Shown here in pieces: positions 49,517-57,582 of a stretch of DNA of 64,000 bases; positions within the stretch are counted from its first letter, which is position 1, and every line of letters starts with the position of its first letter. Origin of the DNA: Candidatus Gastranaerophilales bacterium (GTDB taxonomy: Bacteria > Cyanobacteriota > Vampirovibrionia > Gastranaerophilales > Gastranaerophilaceae); assembly GCA_944323955.1 (NCBI GenBank), contig CALUUK010000006.1:62001-126000 (forward strand), in the 5' to 3' direction. The position numbers were made by a program, and so were the translations under genes. The notes below the pieces were generated by a model. The model was not told where the DNA came from. It was given only the letters and a program-made list of their open reading frames with translations, and searched no databases.

Positions 49517-49951
49517 TTATTTTTGAGTTGCTTTAGGTAAATGTTCAGCTACAAAATTAACGCCTTTTTGAAACAGGTCTTTTGCTTTATCAACACCGGA
49601 AGCTGCTTTGTCTTTTACAGTATTAAAAGCAGATACAGCCTTTCCCATAACAGTATCAACAGCACCTTTAACCGTTGTTTTTGCCGCTGCAACTTTAGGA
49701 TTTTTAGCAATCTCACCGGCAATTTTTTCTACATGTTCTCTAATATTGTTAACTTTGCGGCCGATATTTTCCGCAAATTTTGATTGACCGATTTTTTCAT
49801 TGACTGCAGAAATAATTTTATCTAATTTACCGGTTTTTACCAGATACGCTGTTGCGCCTGCTGCTGCGGCTGTTGCAATTACAGCACCTGCAACTTTCTT
49901 CGCTGTATCTCTTTTTTGTACTGCTACCGGCTGAATTGACTGTACATTCAT
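49517..49951 (-). CDS. Small membrane-associated helical protein, unknown
   Basis: About 144 residues, starting MNVQSIQPVAVQKRDTAKK. One hydrophobic, alanine-rich helix (about 19-38, VAGAVIATAAAAGATAYLV) is followed by a long amphipathic region rich in Lys, Ala and Val (VKGAVDTVMGKAVSAFNTVK), resembling phasin/LEA-like or apolipoprotein-like repeats. The start at 49951 is chosen because AGGAG lies upstream; the longer frame has no such site. A TTGCTAT/T-run box like that of the tpsA genes lies 60-70 nt upstream. No function is assigned. Confidence 0.72.
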   Translation of the reverse strand: MNVQSIQPVAVQKRDTAKKVAGAVIATAAAAGATAYLVKTGKLDKIISAVNEKIGQSKFAENIGRKVNNIREHVEKIAGEIAKNPKVAAAKTTVKGAVDTVMGKAVSAFNTVKDKAASGVDKAKDLFQKGVNFVAEHLPKATQK

Positions 49952-50097
49952 TTTGTCTTCACTCCTAAATTTATATCTTTCTGACCATGTAAAATGCGTG
50001 ATAAACAAAAATTGCTATTTTCTCATGGGCATGTTACATAAATGTTACATTTAAATTTTAATACAAAATAATTTATTTGCATATATATTATAAAGAT

Positions 50098-50151: not shown

Positions 50152-50574
50152 TTATACTGCCTCTGCTGCTGCTTCAGCTGCATCTTTTGCTTTTGGTTTT
50201 AACTTTTCCAATTTGGACGGTATATCTTTAACAAACTCACTGACTTTATCTTTAACAAATATTGCTTTATCTGCAATGAACTTGCCTGCAGTATCCAATC
50301 CTGTCAGCAATGTCTTTTTAAGTCCTTCAGCGCCTTGCGCCCATTGTGAAAAATTACCTTTATGTGCCAAAACTCCCAGCGCGGTTGCTAATGCCGCAAC
50401 AATAACTGCTCCTCCGAGAACTTTGCCTGCTTTGCCTTTCTTTTCCGAAGACTTAATTGAAGATGCTGCAGACGGATCTTCTTTTACAACGTATGTTTGG
50501 GGCTGTTTGATTTTATCTTCAAAACTTGAAGCGGATGCAGCTACTGTACTTCTGAAACTAACGGGTGTTATCAT
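50152..50574 (-). CDS. Small membrane-associated protein, unknown
   Basis: About 140 residues, starting MITPVSFRSTVAASASSFED, with a strong AGGAGG 8 nt upstream. One hydrophobic helix (about 56-72, GGAVIVAALATALGVLAHKG) sits between a Ser/Lys-rich N-terminal part and a C-terminal amphipathic region (FVKDKVSEFVKDIPSKLEKL). It has the same overall plan as the neighbouring gene at 49517, although sequence similarity is weak. Function unknown. Confidence 0.72.
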   Translation of the reverse strand: MITPVSFRSTVAASASSFEDKIKQPQTYVVKEDPSAASSIKSSEKKGKAGKVLGGAVIVAALATALGVLAHKGNFSQWAQGAEGLKKTLLTGLDTAGKFIADKAIFVKDKVSEFVKDIPSKLEKLKPKAKDAAEAAAEAV

Positions 50575-50810
50575 AATAATTACCTCCTTACCTTTGGTAT
50601 CCTCATAAAACACCTGACGAATCTAATTTGATATTTTAAACATTCTGTTTAACAAAATGTTACAATTATTTTTCTCACATAATAAGACCCTGAACACATA
50701 ATTAATTATAACATATTTAACAAGAAGATTAAATCCTTCGGACGATTTTGGAATATTTTTTTTTGAACTGCTGTCTTAATAATTAGAGAAGAATAATCGG
50801 GAGAGAATTA

Positions 50811-53402
50811 ATGAAAATGACAAGCAATATAGAACTTGAGATTGATGATAAAGCAAGAAGTTATGCAAAGATTTATGCATCTTTGATAGAAAATGATTTT
50901 CAAAGAAAAAGAGCATATGCTTCTATCACTGCTTTATATGCCTTTGCAAATTTGATGGAAAAAATCGATTATCCCGTACAAAAAGCAATGACAATTTTCA
51001 GAAATCCAGAATTAAACGAAAAGTATGAAATTTCGGACATTTATATAAATGATTGGCACATTGATGTAAGAGTAATGATAGAAGGAAATTCTTTCATTAT
51101 TCCGAGAATACATGAAGAATACTCAATTGAACCTGATTTTTATGCTGTGATAAAAACAGACTCTTCTCTTAAAAGTGCTGAATTATTAGGATTTGCAAAT
51201 CCTAAATCAATAAAAAAAGAACCTTTGGATTATCATTACTATAGTGTTTCAACCCAAGAACTTATTAATTGTGATGAATTTTTTGACGTTATAAAAAATA
51301 AAAAAGAATTAAATATAAATGCAGAAGAACACAGATTTTTCTTAACGAATTATTTAAGTCTTATCGATAATGAAATTGATGAAGTTTCTCTCAAAAGAAT
51401 ATTAAAACATTTGTTCCTGTGCCCGAAATGCAGAGCGGAATTCTGCTGCTTTACGGGTTTTGAAATGGTAAATTGCAATCTGGGTAAATATCCCCAGCTT
51501 CTGGAAGATCAGACTTTGGATATAATAGGAGCGCAGGCTGCCGATTCAAAAGAATATGAAGGAAAAGAAAAAACAGTATATTTTGATGATAAAGAAAATG
51601 AAAAAAACACTCCCGAAGAACAGGAAAAACAATCCGATAAACAGGAAGAAGAAATAATTGAAATTCCGGATGAAGATACTGAATTTATCAATGATGAAGA
51701 TAATTCTACCGTTTCCGATATATTGGATGAATTATTTAACATAGAAGATGAAGAAACCGTTGATATAACATCTGATGAAACAATTTCGGAAGATTTAACT
51801 TTATTGCCTGATGAATTTGAACAAAAAGATGACGAAAATAGTTCTGAAATCGTTGAAATTGAAGAATTTCATGATGACCTTGAAGTTTTATCGGAAGAAG
51901 ATGAAGATAATGAAATGCTTGAAATAGACACCGATTCGGACCTTTTGAGTCTCGATGAACCGGACGGCATTTCTTTGCTTGATTCCGACGATCTTGATTC
52001 AGAAGTTATAGAAAATATTGAAAATATAGACAAAGAACAAAAAGAAACCGTAGATAAAGTGATTGTGGATTATGATGAAAACGGAGAACCGATATATTCA
52101 TATATTACAAATGTTCCGCAAGAAGCAGACGAACAAAGCGTAATAGAAGGAATAGAAGATATTGAAGCAATTGAAGATATTGAAGCAACAGCTCCTGAAA
52201 TTAATATAATTGATGACACCATAATAACAGAAGAAGAACCCGCAAATATCGGAAATGATATTGATATTATTGAAAATGAAACGGAAGAAGAACTTGAATA
52301 TCCGCAGGAAAATAAAACATTTAATGAAAATGTTGAACCATTTATTGAAGAAACAACCGAATATGACGAAGAGTCTGAATATAAAGATATTAAAGATGAA
52401 GAATATATAAATACTCCGGCAGAAGAACACTCAGAAGAAGAAGCGGAGAACATCGGCGAAGAAACTTATCAGGATCAGGATGAGATTGATGAAAAATATG
52501 AAAACGATGCAGTATCCGAAGAAGATGACTATGAAAATGACTATGATGAAGACTATGACGAAGAATATGATTATAATGAAGAAAACAATTCTGACATACA
52601 AAAAGGTTCATCAAAAAAAGGCATGCTTGTAGCAAGTATATTGGCAGTAGCCGTAATTGCAGCCTCTGCCGTAACATACGGATACATAAAAAAAGCAACT
52701 GATGAAACAAAAACAGCAGTAAATACACAGGAAGCACAAATTCCGAACAGTGAAGTCACTGCTGAATTATTTGAAGGAATAAATGATAATGATGTTTTTG
52801 CCAAATTAGGAGATGAAAATTCCCCAAGTGATGATTTAATTGCACCGGATAATAACGAAATTCCATCAACACAAACAGAAGAAACTGCACCTTCAGAGCC
52901 GGAACAGGCTCAAACTCCTGCAGCTGAAACACCCGGCGCTGACGAATCAAATGTTGTAAAACCTTTAACCGAAAAAGATTTATTGGAGCAAAAACCGACA
53001 AATGACGTAAATAAAGCAATGGCAAACGCATTCTCGGATCAAACAAAGTTAGTTTCTTCAATAAAAGGGCTGAACTGGATGTGTGCCCCCGGTTTATTCA
53101 CCAATACGGAATTTAAAAACTATCTTCAAAATGTTGATAAAACACTCAGAATGAATCTTAATTCCAACATACTGAACTCTTCTACAGTACCCGTGAATAA
53201 TTCAATAACTTACAAGATAGCAATAGATAATGAAGGTAATTTATTAAAAACTCAAGCCGTCGGTTCAACAGGTTCTGACGAAATAGATAACATTGTGTTA
53301 CAAAGTATTAAAGAAACTTTAGCATTGCAAAAAACCCAAATTCTCAGCAGCGGTCAGCAAAAAGCGGATAAATACTACATACAGGTGGTAATAAAATTCT
53401 GA
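50811..53402 (+). CDS. Putative membrane anti-sigma factor: DUF1822-like, ZAS-type zinc motif, TonB-C-like domain
   Basis: 863 residues. Region 10-165 follows the cyanobacterial DUF1822 pattern (ARSYAKIYASLIENDFQRKR, DWHIDVRVMIEGNSFIIPRI, SAELLGFANP). Residues 195-213 hold HLFLCPKCRAEFCC: H200-x3-C204-x2-C207 is the zinc motif of ZAS anti-sigma factors. A very acidic linker of about 380 residues leads to one membrane helix (about 602-624, LVASILAVAVIAASAVTYGY). The C-terminal domain (about 765-863; VNNSITYKIAIDNEGNLLKT, QAVGSTGSDEIDNIVLQSIK) resembles TonB-C domains. An ECF-like sigma gene follows 47 nt later. The anti-sigma role is inferred from motif plus neighbour. Confidence 0.75.
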   Translation: MKMTSNIELEIDDKARSYAKIYASLIENDFQRKRAYASITALYAFANLMEKIDYPVQKAMTIFRNPELNEKYEISDIYINDWHIDVRVMIEGNSFIIPRIHEEYSIEPDFYAVIKTDSSLKSAELLGFANPKSIKKEPLDYHYYSVSTQELINCDEFFDVIKNKKELNINAEEHRFFLTNYLSLIDNEIDEVSLKRILKHLFLCPKCRAEFCCFTGFEMVNCNLGKYPQLLEDQTLDIIGAQAADSKEYEGKEKTVYFDDKENEKNTPEEQEKQSDKQEEEIIEIPDEDTEFINDEDNSTVSDILDELFNIEDEETVDITSDETISEDLTLLPDEFEQKDDENSSEIVEIEEFHDDLEVLSEEDEDNEMLEIDTDSDLLSLDEPDGISLLDSDDLDSEVIENIENIDKEQKETVDKVIVDYDENGEPIYSYITNVPQEADEQSVIEGIEDIEAIEDIEATAPEINIIDDTIITEEEPANIGNDIDIIENETEEELEYPQENKTFNENVEPFIEETTEYDEESEYKDIKDEEYINTPAEEHSEEEAENIGEETYQDQDEIDEKYENDAVSEEDDYENDYDEDYDEEYDYNEENNSDIQKGSSKKGMLVASILAVAVIAASAVTYGYIKKATDETKTAVNTQEAQIPNSEVTAELFEGINDNDVFAKLGDENSPSDDLIAPDNNEIPSTQTEETAPSEPEQAQTPAAETPGADESNVVKPLTEKDLLEQKPTNDVNKAMANAFSDQTKLVSSIKGLNWMCAPGLFTNTEFKNYLQNVDKTLRMNLNSNILNSSTVPVNNSITYKIAIDNEGNLLKTQAVGSTGSDEIDNIVLQSIKETLALQKTQILSSGQQKADKYYIQVVIKF

Positions 53403-53449
53403 TTTGTGATATTATGTTTGTAGGTATGCGAGATTAGAGAAATATATTC

Positions 53450-54031
53450 GTGCTTTTAGTTGAGGAACAAAGATCTTTAATAGAAAAAATAGTTAAGGCC
53501 GATAGAAATTTTCCAGGCAACGAAGACTTGCTTGAAGATTTCTGCAGCGAGGCATTCCAGAAATCTTATATGATATTTAACTCTTCATCAAATATCACTA
53601 AGATAGAAAGCTATGTAAAAAAAGTTGTACATACATCTATTGTAAGCGTTCTTAGAAATTCCGGACGAGTAAGACGAAGTAATGATAAATATATACCTAC
53701 GAAAGAAATAACGGTTCCCGATTTTTCACCCGAAACCGTTTCTAAAGCAGCCGGAAGAGAATTCATACTTGACTTTCCGGATCCAAGAGACAGCGTTGAA
53801 GAAGTTTTAATTACAAAAGACTGCCTGCAGAGAATTTCCGATGCTGTTTGCGTAATACATAAAGAAGCACCGGGACAATTATTCCTTGACATTTTTTATA
53901 AAAGATATGTTCAAGGTCAAAAGCAAGCCGAAATTGCAGCTTCTTTAAATATTTCTCAATCCGAAGTAAGCAAAAGACTGATGCAGCTTTCCAAACTGAT
54001 AAGTAATTTTCTTGAAACCGGCAAAAGTTAG
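53450..54031 (+). CDS. ECF-like RNA polymerase sigma factor
   Basis: 193 residues from a GTG at 53450 (weak AGAGA upstream). A region 2-like segment (IESYVKKVVHTSIVSVLRNS, GRVRRSND) and a region 4 helix-turn-helix (GQKQAEIAASLNISQSEVSK) are present, with about 80 residues between. No region 1 or 3 is seen, matching group 3/4 sigma factors. It lies between the zinc-motif membrane protein, its probable anti-sigma, and the ATPase gene (8-nt gap), all on one strand. What it controls is unknown. Confidence 0.78.
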   Translation: MLLVEEQRSLIEKIVKADRNFPGNEDLLEDFCSEAFQKSYMIFNSSSNITKIESYVKKVVHTSIVSVLRNSGRVRRSNDKYIPTKEITVPDFSPETVSKAAGREFILDFPDPRDSVEEVLITKDCLQRISDAVCVIHKEAPGQLFLDIFYKRYVQGQKQAEIAASLNISQSEVSKRLMQLSKLISNFLETGKS

Positions 54032-54039
54032 GATTTGCC

Positions 54040-57000
54040 ATGATATGTCGTAAATGCGGAACAATTTTACCTGACAATTCAATCAGATGCACTAATTGCG
54101 GTATAAAGGTTAATATCGTTTGTCCTCAGTGCAAGACATTAACGCCTTTCGGAGAAAAACATTGCATAAACTGCGGTTTTGAATTTATTAAGATTTGTCC
54201 TTCCTGTCACAGCTCAAATATATATTTGGCAACAGAATGCAGAAAATGCAAAACTCCTTTTTCACAGACCGAAAAAACAATAATAACGGAGAAGGAGACT
54301 GCCGTTCAAAATGAAATTAAATCAATTCTAACCGAAAATAATGAAATCGCAATAGAAGTCGTTGAACCCATAAGCACGGAAGAACTTTCATCTGCGGAGC
54401 CGTCTGTCATATTTGAAGAAAATGACAATTGTACGGCAGAACCTCAGATAATACAGCAAGAACAGGAAGAATACGAAGTTAAAGAAACAACACGCGAAGA
54501 ATATGATGAAATATCTTCTGTTGAAGAGAGAACAGAAGAAGAAAAAAACGTTGATATAAGCCAAAATGATGAAGAAATTCATATCTTAAATTCTGAGGAA
54601 GAAGAATTTACGGAAAAAGAGAAATATGAATATACAGATATTGAAGAAAACGGGATTGAAGAATTAACTACGGAGACCGAAAATACTGAAAACACACAAT
54701 CAGAACCTGAAGTAAAATCCGATATTGAACAAGAAATACAACAAGACGAAAATGAAGAAGACGATGAAATTTATACAAATTCCGTTTCTAATGAAAATAT
54801 TCCGTCAAATGAAAATAATGAGACCGATTTGCCCGAACAAGAAGAAGAAGAATCTTTACAATACATCATTCAACAAAATGCAGTAATAGAAATAATTCAA
54901 AACATAAAAAAATCAATAACAAAACATATCATAGCAATAAACGGCCCCGAAGGCTGCGGAAAAACTGCCGCGATAAATCAAATTCGCAATATATTATCAA
55001 ATGACGGATATTTATGTTTGTACGGAAGCTGTACGCCGTTATCACAAATCACCAGTTTCGGATATTTTCAGGATGCTTTGCTGAGAATGATAGGACTTCC
55101 GCCATATATCAACAGCAGCGAAGCCTTTATACGTGATTTTAAAAAGAGCAATTTAAATAACATTTTTAATTTTCTTCATCCGCATGAATTGTCACTTTTT
55201 ATAAATCTGCTATACCCGGCACAGAAAGACAGTTTTGAAAATATTCTTGAGAATAAACAATTAATGTTTTCCATATTGGAAAAAGTTATAAAAACTTTCC
55301 TGACAAATTCAAATATTGTTATGATAATTGACAATTTTGACTTGCTGGATGGAGCTTCTTATGACTTTATTACTTACATGGCAGGTAAAAATTTCTTTAA
55401 TAACAGACTCAAATTGCTGGTAGCTTATCAGGACACAAAACCGGTACAAAATTACTTTGATTTAACCGTTAAAGATGACAGCATATTCTCAACAATAAAT
55501 CTTGAGAAATTAACACCTCAGGAATTAATTGATACAATAAACAGTTCTACGGGTATAAATTTAGCGGATATAATTCCGTCTGATTATCTTGATGAAATAA
55601 TAAAACGTGCCGACGGAAATGCTATAAATCTTGAACAATATATGGCATATTTGTTTGATACAAATTACCTTATGATAAACAACGAAGAAATAGAGGTAAA
55701 CGAGAGCAATAAACCTGAAAACGAGCCTGAAACATTAGATGAATTAATGAAATTCAGATTAAGCATTCTCCCGGCGGAAGTAAAAAATGTTTTATTTATG
55801 GCATCAATTATGGGATTCAGATTTGCAACAAATATACTCTGTCATGCAGTTCCTATGCACGGAAAGAAAGCATTAAATATTCTTGATGTTTTAAGAGAAG
55901 AGCTGCTTATTTCGCCTGTTGATGAATTTACATGCGAATTTAAAAATTTAACAATCTGGAAATACATATATAAAGAAGCAAAAGCAGATCCTTTTTTCAA
56001 AGATAATTCCGAACGGCTTTATTCAATATTAAAATCAAGAGTGCTCTCAAGCAATATACAAAAAATCATTTCTTGCTCACAAGCCCTCAGCAAAGAAGAA
56101 GAATTTATTATATGGCAGGATACGTCATACATAACAGCCAAACTGGGAGACACAAATCTTTATGTTATAGCCCAAAAGCAATGTTTGAAGATTCTTGAAG
56201 AACAAAATCTGCCCAACGCAGATACTGTACGCGAAATCATATACGAACAAATGGGAAAATTATTAAGCCGTAAATCACCGGGTGAGGCTATTGGTTATCT
56301 TGCAAATGTACTTGATGCAAAAATAAAAACAAGTGATACAAACAAAATCATAGATTTATCAGGATATTTTGTTAACAGCTGTTATTTAACGGGAAATTAC
56401 TTCGGAGTAAAAGAAGCTGTTGATGCAATAATTACAAATATTAATTCAACAGGCTCAAAAATATCTGATACGGACTTAGCACTTATTAAAACAAGAAAAC
56501 TTAATGCTCTTTTAAATATCGGAAATACGGAAGAAGTTATAAATATTATCAAAGAAGAAATTCTTCCCGATTTGAATAAAGAACTTACAATAAAACAAAC
56601 GGATACAAGTTATAAAAATCTTCTTACGGACGCATGGTTTTTATCAAACATTGCGCTTGCAAAAGCATATTTAATTCAGGGGAAACAAAGCGTATTTTCA
56701 ATTACGGCATCTATGCGGGATTATATTGAAAATAACAAAATAAAGTCAGAATATTACAACGCTCAGATAGATATAATTGAAGCATTTGCACATTCAACAC
56801 GGGGAGAAGTCAGTCTGTCAAATGATATTTTAACCTCCGTTTTAGAACATTTTAATGACAAGTCACCGGATAAAAAATTATTATGTGAACTTAACCTTGT
56901 AAGTATAGTTAACAGAATATTCTCAAATCAAATACATGATTTAAAAGAAGATTTATTTGAACTTGCAGCATTTGCAAACAATATAAATGAACATTTTATA

Positions 57001-57582
57001 AAGAATATTGCAAAACTTATATTAGGTTATGTAATCAAACAAGAAGGTAACACAGTTAAAGCACTAACCATATATAACGATGAAATTACATATTTTGCGA
57101 AAGAAAAAATTGCAATAGGCGCATTACTTTCCTGGGCTTTAATTACGGAAGCAAGTATTGATAACGGCGATATTGATATGGCATTAAATACAGCAACAAA
57201 AGCACTTGAAATAGCAGAAGGCCCTAAAATTAACAATTTATTTTTCATAATATATTTCCAAAAATTCATTGCGCAGATATACGAAATAAAAGGAGATTTT
57301 GCGGCAGTAAAAATGTATCATGAAAAGGCACTTGCCGTTGCAAAACAAAATAATTTAAAATATCAGCTTGCTCATTTATATATCGATTACGGAAATTATA
57401 TAGAATGTTTAATGAAAACACAGAAAACGTATAGCGATGATTATATAAAACTCACTTTAGATATGTACAATAAAGCATTATCTATTGCAAACGAACTCAA
57501 AATAGATTATCTTACAGAAAAAGCATCAAGAGAACGTACAAATTTTAAAAGATATTGCCAGCTAAATTCAATTGAAATATAA
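54040..57582 (+). CDS. Zinc-ribbon, STAND-type ATPase with TPR-like C-terminal region
   Basis: 1180 residues. Two or more zinc ribbons with eight CxxC-type cysteines lie at 1-75 (CRKCG, CTNCG, CPQCK, CINCG, CPSC, CRKC). An acidic linker spans about 80-275. The P-loop ATPase has IAINGPEGCGKTAAINQI (Walker A, about 300-317) and IVMIIDNFDLLDGASYDFI (Walker B, about 425-443). A winged-helix-like segment is followed by about 550 residues of helical, TPR-like repeats (ALTIYNDEITYFAKEK, MYHEKALAVAKQNNLKYQLA). The plan matches STAND NTPases such as MalT or cyclase-linked ATPases; no output domain is recognised. Regulatory linkage to the sigma gene is inferred from the operon. Confidence 0.72.
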   Translation: MICRKCGTILPDNSIRCTNCGIKVNIVCPQCKTLTPFGEKHCINCGFEFIKICPSCHSSNIYLATECRKCKTPFSQTEKTIITEKETAVQNEIKSILTENNEIAIEVVEPISTEELSSAEPSVIFEENDNCTAEPQIIQQEQEEYEVKETTREEYDEISSVEERTEEEKNVDISQNDEEIHILNSEEEEFTEKEKYEYTDIEENGIEELTTETENTENTQSEPEVKSDIEQEIQQDENEEDDEIYTNSVSNENIPSNENNETDLPEQEEEESLQYIIQQNAVIEIIQNIKKSITKHIIAINGPEGCGKTAAINQIRNILSNDGYLCLYGSCTPLSQITSFGYFQDALLRMIGLPPYINSSEAFIRDFKKSNLNNIFNFLHPHELSLFINLLYPAQKDSFENILENKQLMFSILEKVIKTFLTNSNIVMIIDNFDLLDGASYDFITYMAGKNFFNNRLKLLVAYQDTKPVQNYFDLTVKDDSIFSTINLEKLTPQELIDTINSSTGINLADIIPSDYLDEIIKRADGNAINLEQYMAYLFDTNYLMINNEEIEVNESNKPENEPETLDELMKFRLSILPAEVKNVLFMASIMGFRFATNILCHAVPMHGKKALNILDVLREELLISPVDEFTCEFKNLTIWKYIYKEAKADPFFKDNSERLYSILKSRVLSSNIQKIISCSQALSKEEEFIIWQDTSYITAKLGDTNLYVIAQKQCLKILEEQNLPNADTVREIIYEQMGKLLSRKSPGEAIGYLANVLDAKIKTSDTNKIIDLSGYFVNSCYLTGNYFGVKEAVDAIITNINSTGSKISDTDLALIKTRKLNALLNIGNTEEVINIIKEEILPDLNKELTIKQTDTSYKNLLTDAWFLSNIALAKAYLIQGKQSVFSITASMRDYIENNKIKSEYYNAQIDIIEAFAHSTRGEVSLSNDILTSVLEHFNDKSPDKKLLCELNLVSIVNRIFSNQIHDLKEDLFELAAFANNINEHFIKNIAKLILGYVIKQEGNTVKALTIYNDEITYFAKEKIAIGALLSWALITEASIDNGDIDMALNTATKALEIAEGPKINNLFFIIYFQKFIAQIYEIKGDFAAVKMYHEKALAVAKQNNLKYQLAHLYIDYGNYIECLMKTQKTYSDDYIKLTLDMYNKALSIANELKIDYLTEKASRERTNFKRYCQLNSIEI

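Follow-up and report, generated by a model that had tools for sequence, protein, structure and literature searches.

In FecR/FecA cell-surface signalling, an inner-membrane anti-sigma factor carries a C-terminal periplasmic domain, and in TonB and TolA an SHLS-type motif in the membrane helix serves for coupling to ExbB/ExbD or TolQ/TolR. Among class I anti-sigma factors, to which RsiW belongs, members with and without Hx3Cx2C form a normal mixture (PMC7406223). ECF sigma factor and DUF1822 genes have been mentioned together, in a single sentence, near caspase-domain systems (PMC8195603).

Compared with these systems, the operon described here, which consists of the genes A, S and T, has both shared and distinct features. 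It is like RsiW/SigW and other class I systems (ASDI) in its profile-matched anti-sigma domain, single membrane helix and neighbouring ECF gene, but A adds an N-terminal DUF1822 part with a predicted nuclease fold, an acidic linker of several hundred residues and a TolA/TonB-like periplasmic domain, and its anti-sigma gene precedes the sigma gene. DUF1822 beside a sigma gene is shared with cyanobacterial sigma-DUF1822 pairs, some of which are accompanied by CHAT or caspase genes (PMC8195603), whereas the sampled DUF1822 proteins there are only about 320-500 aa long and their gene follows the sigma gene. As in FecR/FecA, the C-terminal periplasmic domain of A could contact an envelope receptor; however, the one TonB-dependent receptor of the host genome is not encoded beside the A-S-T operon, and Pfam showed no FecR-type domain in A. 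The last 110 residues of A have the same fold as TolA domain III and the TonB C-terminal domain, but in A a cytoplasmic anti-sigma module precedes this domain, and the genome has a TonB-ExbB-ExbD set apart from A. We did not find this combination of protein parts described together. The computed domains and folds, the order and co-occurrence of the genes and the conservation of the promoter make it probable, in our view, that A acts on S as a membrane-anchored anti-sigma factor of class I with a new architecture, encoded in a self-regulating A-S-T operon.

The host, a Candidatus Gastranaerophilales bacterium whose genome of 1.96 Mb encodes the operon, is placed among the gut bacteria of the non-photosynthetic Cyanobacteriota branch, and close relatives of S come from records labelled Candidatus Gastranaerophilales, Avigastranaerophilus, gut bacteria and, in one case, 'Cyanobacteria bacterium'. 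In the window (the whole stretch of DNA analysed, 64,000 nt, positions 62001-126000 of contig C6), all three genes lie on the forward strand. A (50811-53402, 863 aa), delimited by its open reading frame, Pfam matches, models and homologues, is followed after 47 nt by S (53450-54031, 193 aa), and S after 8 nt by T (54040-57582). The reading frame of A, the 47-nt gap and the sigma frame behind it are thus all present as the initial annotation had given them. Judging from gene order in relatives, the operon has a third conserved gene, T, which that account did not include. Its product of 1180 aa has a double zinc ribbon (DZR in Pfam, above cut-off), an acidic stretch, an AAA/STAND-like ATPase (AAA_16, 29.5 bits, below cut-off) and a TPR-like C-terminus (TPR_MalT, weak), and a phmmer search of T against PDB sequences gave no match.

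The class I anti-sigma domain of A (residues 172-224; 51324-51482, forward strand) was assigned by sequence profiles, as fold searches were filled by the nuclease-fold part. Over these residues the A-family profile matches the anti-sigma factor RsiW, which has a solved structure, with an E-value of 1.2e-4, and more weakly DdvA and 3hug_B; it also finds small membrane anti-sigma-like proteins, in the host genome and in others of its class, whose genes are immediate neighbours of ECF sigma genes. The zinc-type motif H200-x3-C204-x2-C207 (51408-51431, forward strand) is present as initially reported and agrees with the label of a zinc anti-sigma factor (ZAS), but zf-HC2 in Pfam scores only 17.6-19.4 bits, below the cut-off of 22.2, and about half of the family has lost the motif. 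It is kept in 26 of the 27 closer relatives; across the family H200 is kept in 19 of 41 members and both cysteines are lost in about half, and the anti-sigma helices remain recognisable where the ligands are gone. Since half of the family has lost the motif and most members without the zinc cysteines still have S, the motif is, by this alignment evidence, dispensable and does not define A, and its mixed presence is in line with what has been published for class I, where zinc and non-zinc members both occur (PMC7406223). Elsewhere in the host genome (locus L103, 3544-4894; contig C3 of G000), a second ECF sigma gene precedes that of a 227-aa membrane protein in which an anti-sigma-like repeat occurs twice, the second copy lacking zinc ligands.

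Behind the anti-sigma domain, composition marks an acidic low-complexity linker at about residues 238-600 (51522-52610, forward strand). The initial annotation had spoken of about 380 acidic residues; the acidic linker does extend over some 390 residues, but only 38% of these are Asp or Glu (38% D/E and 5% K/R in the stretch of 395 residues that separates the motif from the membrane helix). In most S-linked loci the D/E fraction of the linker is 0.24-0.38, and in two it is 0.15-0.23; in genera where A and S are unlinked, the linker is weakly acidic (0.11-0.18) and usually short. The single membrane helix claimed earlier is found at residues 604-622 (52620-52676, forward strand; hydropathy peak 2.28), and the flanking charges predict an N-in/C-out topology for A. 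This helix, GMLVASILAVAVIAASAVTYGYI, has no His and thus no SHLS-type TonB/TolA motif. The TolA-III/TonB-like extracytoplasmic domain comprises residues 753-863 (53067-53399, forward strand) and was assigned by TonB_2, AF2 and fold searches. TonB_2 scored 19.3 bits in the whole protein, below the cut-off of 22, and 22.7 bits, above it, when the C-terminus was cropped. An AF2 model of the C-terminal 138 residues (pLDDT 84.8) best matches TolA-III and the TonB/HasB C-terminal domains, with Foldseek probabilities up to 1.00 and, against 1tol, a VIA Z of 9.0 over 94 residues at 3.0 A, so that the TonB-C-like C-terminus proposed at the outset is confirmed. Besides A, the host genome encodes a TonB, an ExbB and two ExbD, and as this set is present along with one TonB-dependent receptor, A is not needed as a general TonB.

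The ECF-like sigma factor proposed after A lies where stated, and its ECF-like match is kept by the 31-sequence family alignment; the score of S itself, 42.6 bits, is just under the curated TIGR02937 cut-off of 42.9, and Sigma70_r4 and r4_2 are also just below theirs. A homologue of A is found in 55 of 60 family genomes, with a diverged one in G016 as well. S directly follows A in 32 of 41 loci, T follows S in about 30, and the gaps hardly vary among the 27 closer relatives (about 48 nt from A to S and about 8 nt from S to T). A sigma gene lacking this partner in relatives, a case that the initial annotation had considered, was not seen, S without A being absent from the genomes checked; however, in eight genomes A and S are not linked, S being located elsewhere in all eight, and in genome G026, where A occurs without a close S, A may serve a different function. 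Two further arrangements were observed in this family. In several unlinked genera (L184, L187, L188 and L189), S is divergent from a gene for an apparently exported protein of 650-725 aa, and in G024 a sigma homologue lies inside a 476-aa reading frame that is possibly a fusion (L182, 4842-6272).

The putative ECF-type operon promoter, GGAATA-N13-TGCTGTCT, was located by motif conservation at 50750-50776 of the forward strand, where the window reads GGAATATTTTTTTTTGAACTGCTGTCT, and 34 nt separate its end from the ATG of A. The pattern GGAATA-N13-TGTMATCT, with fixed spacing, stands upstream of A in about 30 of the 32 S-linked loci, and GGAATA-N13-TG...TC does so in 24 of the 27 closer relatives. 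In unlinked genera, a TTGAAA-type sequence occupies the -35 position upstream of A and the TGT.ATCT-like element is kept; no promoter motif was seen upstream of S in these genera. The difference between S-linked loci with the promoter and unlinked genera with the changed -35 element has a Fisher p of 6e-7, in a comparison that ignores phylogenetic dependence. Of 60 genomes, 23 contain the strict form GGAATA-N13-TGYNATC, each a single time and in every case ahead of A, and its reversed control gave 0 matches; relaxed patterns gave scattered extra matches, whose number in most genomes barely exceeded that of the reversed pattern. Since the strict motif occurs only at the operon itself, S probably controls mainly its own operon. 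This distribution, obtained by pattern matching with a strict motif that would miss weaker targets, points to positive autoregulation by S with few or no other strong targets. Upstream of the promoter, many genera (e.g. L052 and L063) have a second conserved element, like TTACAAAA(A/G)TTTACA, which is possibly a regulator site or a divergent promoter.

The DUF1822 domain occupies residues 9-165 of A (50835-51305, forward strand), and the initial suggestion of a DUF1822-like N-terminus is upheld by PF08852, which scores 32.5 bits over residues 9-164 in Pfam against a curated cut-off of 25. A aligns to positions 1-163 of the 370 in the profile, that is, to its N-terminal half only; the best cyanobacterial DUF1822 proteins align over its full length. 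An absence of DUF1822, ZAS or TonB-C matches, for which the initial annotation had allowed, thus did not come about. In the AF2 model of residues 1-240, built on an alignment of 41 relatives (pLDDT 92.6), the DUF1822 part is a PD-(D/E)XK nuclease fold. The 50 structural matches listed, over residues of about 12-165, are PD-(D/E)XK/restriction-endonuclease-like nucleases or tRNA-splicing endonucleases, and among them are archaeal Holliday junction resolvases, I-Ssp6803I, type II restriction enzymes and SPARDA nucleases. The best scores, for Hjc (Z 8.4, 109 residues), I-Ssp6803I (8.3) and Eco15I (8.3), are middling, as a Z near 8 may reflect a common arrangement according to the tool's note, but almost all of the matches listed share one fold class. 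The conserved hairpin D76...D85-V86-R87 agrees with the nuclease motif except that another residue stands in place of Lys, a mapping taken from the strand hairpin rather than from a structural alignment. D76 is kept in 40 and D85 in 37 of 41 sequences, position 87 is R, I, A or V and never K (0 of 41), and P98, H101 and G127 are invariant. With the catalytic D...(D/E)xK pattern absent from the 41 sequences of the A family, the domain is probably catalytically dead.

DUF1822 was detected in 163 of 244 genomes of the phylum and in none of 14 controls. When the neighbourhoods of 52 cyanobacterial DUF1822 reading frames were inspected, 41 directly followed a sigma or sigma-like gene on the same strand, in a non-random sample of 49 loci (30 best matches and 19 picked by hand along the ranking). 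The preceding genes counted belong to a family containing Sigma70_r4 or to a shorter family, part of which matches ECF models; as several members of the latter have no Pfam match, the 41 include sigma-like genes. The eleven negatives include one gene that entered the sample two times (as L095 and L231) and the latter half of a stop-split gene (L091). One cyanobacterial sigma-DUF1822 pair is followed by a CHAT-CHASE2 gene, and these neighbourhoods may be compared, by analogy only, with the pairing of CHAT and sigma in CRISPR type III-E, for which the source describes a CHAT protease in its abstract and names a sigma factor 25 times in its text (PMC10028731). We tentatively suggest, while leaning slightly to the doubtful side, that Cyanobacteriota as a phylum use DUF1822, built on a dead PD-(D/E)XK fold, as a sigma-regulating domain, which would form a new class of sigma partner with varied sensor modules. 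The attached sensors would then be neighbouring CHAT-type proteases in Cyanobacteria, and the anti-sigma and TolA/TonB-like membrane module in the gut lineage.

These neighbourhoods bear on which part of A would hold S. DUF1822 rather than the zinc-type domain could be the sigma-binding part throughout the phylum, with the anti-sigma domain an auxiliary or decaying module; this we regard as unlikely, but it deserves serious attention. The 41 of 52 sigma-adjacent cyanobacterial genes are in its favour, although they come from best matches and a hand-picked spread, and so is the one cyanobacterial protein scanned in Pfam, which is DUF1822 over its full length, with neither anti-sigma nor TolA/TonB parts found. 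In mirror-tree comparisons, the distances of S track the DUF1822 part best (r 0.895, partial 0.80; r 0.69 for the short anti-sigma domain), so that the main contact could be DUF1822, but the method correlates all parts of A with S and does not decide which part binds, and the correlation of an anti-sigma segment of about 55 aa is noisy. Likewise, the loss of the zinc motif in half of the family, which would suit a decaying module, has to be set against anti-sigma helices that are recognisable even without zinc ligands.

Two other explanations appear improbable to us. A might be a TolA/TonB-like envelope tether or energy coupler whose N-terminus merely localises S and T, a scaffold and not a signalling protein. 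The C-terminal TolA-III/TonB fold, the very long linker of variable length and the several genera that keep A without an adjacent S would agree with such a role, but the separate TonB with ExbB and two ExbD and the missing SHLS-type motif speak against it, and the RsiW-like domain and conserved ECF-type promoter fit signalling. We give just as little credence to the idea that the promoter is read by another sigma factor, such as the second ECF at L103, and that S controls other, undetected genes. Such a second ECF/anti-sigma-like pair does exist in the genome, and where S is unlinked, a related motif is still seen upstream of A and none upstream of the distant S; however, the strict motif occurs once per genome, at the A-S-T operon only, and it is in the genera with an unlinked and diverged S that the -35 element has changed. 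The preferred reading of A as an anti-sigma factor for S is not free of difficulties, and the zf-HC2 score below cut-off, G026 without a close S and the lack of a motif upstream of unlinked S count against it. Overall, the envelope-sensing anti-sigma/sigma system that was initially proposed finds good support in homology, synteny and the conserved promoter, but the zinc motif is not its defining feature.

If A acts as an anti-sigma factor, its cytoplasmic N-terminus (DUF1822 and the RsiW-like domain) would bind S and keep it inactive at the membrane, and the long acidic linker and one helix would join this part to the periplasmic TolA/TonB-like domain, which may sense an envelope partner. On engagement, A could be cut at the membrane or its N-terminus reshaped, by which S would be freed; one protease of the M50 family (site-2-type) is encoded by the host genome, so that proteolysis is a possible route of release. 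Freed S would transcribe A-S-T from the GGAATA-N13-TGYNATC promoter, the rise in the ATPase T would be the likely main output, and the rise in A would reset the switch. If this is true, DUF1822, a family of unknown function in many sampled cyanobacterial genomes, would gain a testable role, and a possible way of envelope sensing in an uncultured lineage of the gut would be described. It would be surprising to see a nuclease fold serve in sigma regulation, while a sigma factor with its own operon as the only strong promoter would be a simple, self-contained switch that can be reconstituted.

The gene D (50152-50613, reverse strand) lies divergently beside the operon. A search with PADLOC on A, S, T and D for a defence system gave no defence family and one marginal HTH match, on S. 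D encodes a small protein that fits a profile of the divergent neighbour from 23 relatives (E 1.9e-14), and both D and a second divergent small protein (49517-50008, reverse strand) have one hydrophobic segment and amphipathic helices. The nearer of the two, D, begins with a VSFxG-like stretch, an N-terminal pattern common to other Gastranaerophilales proteins.
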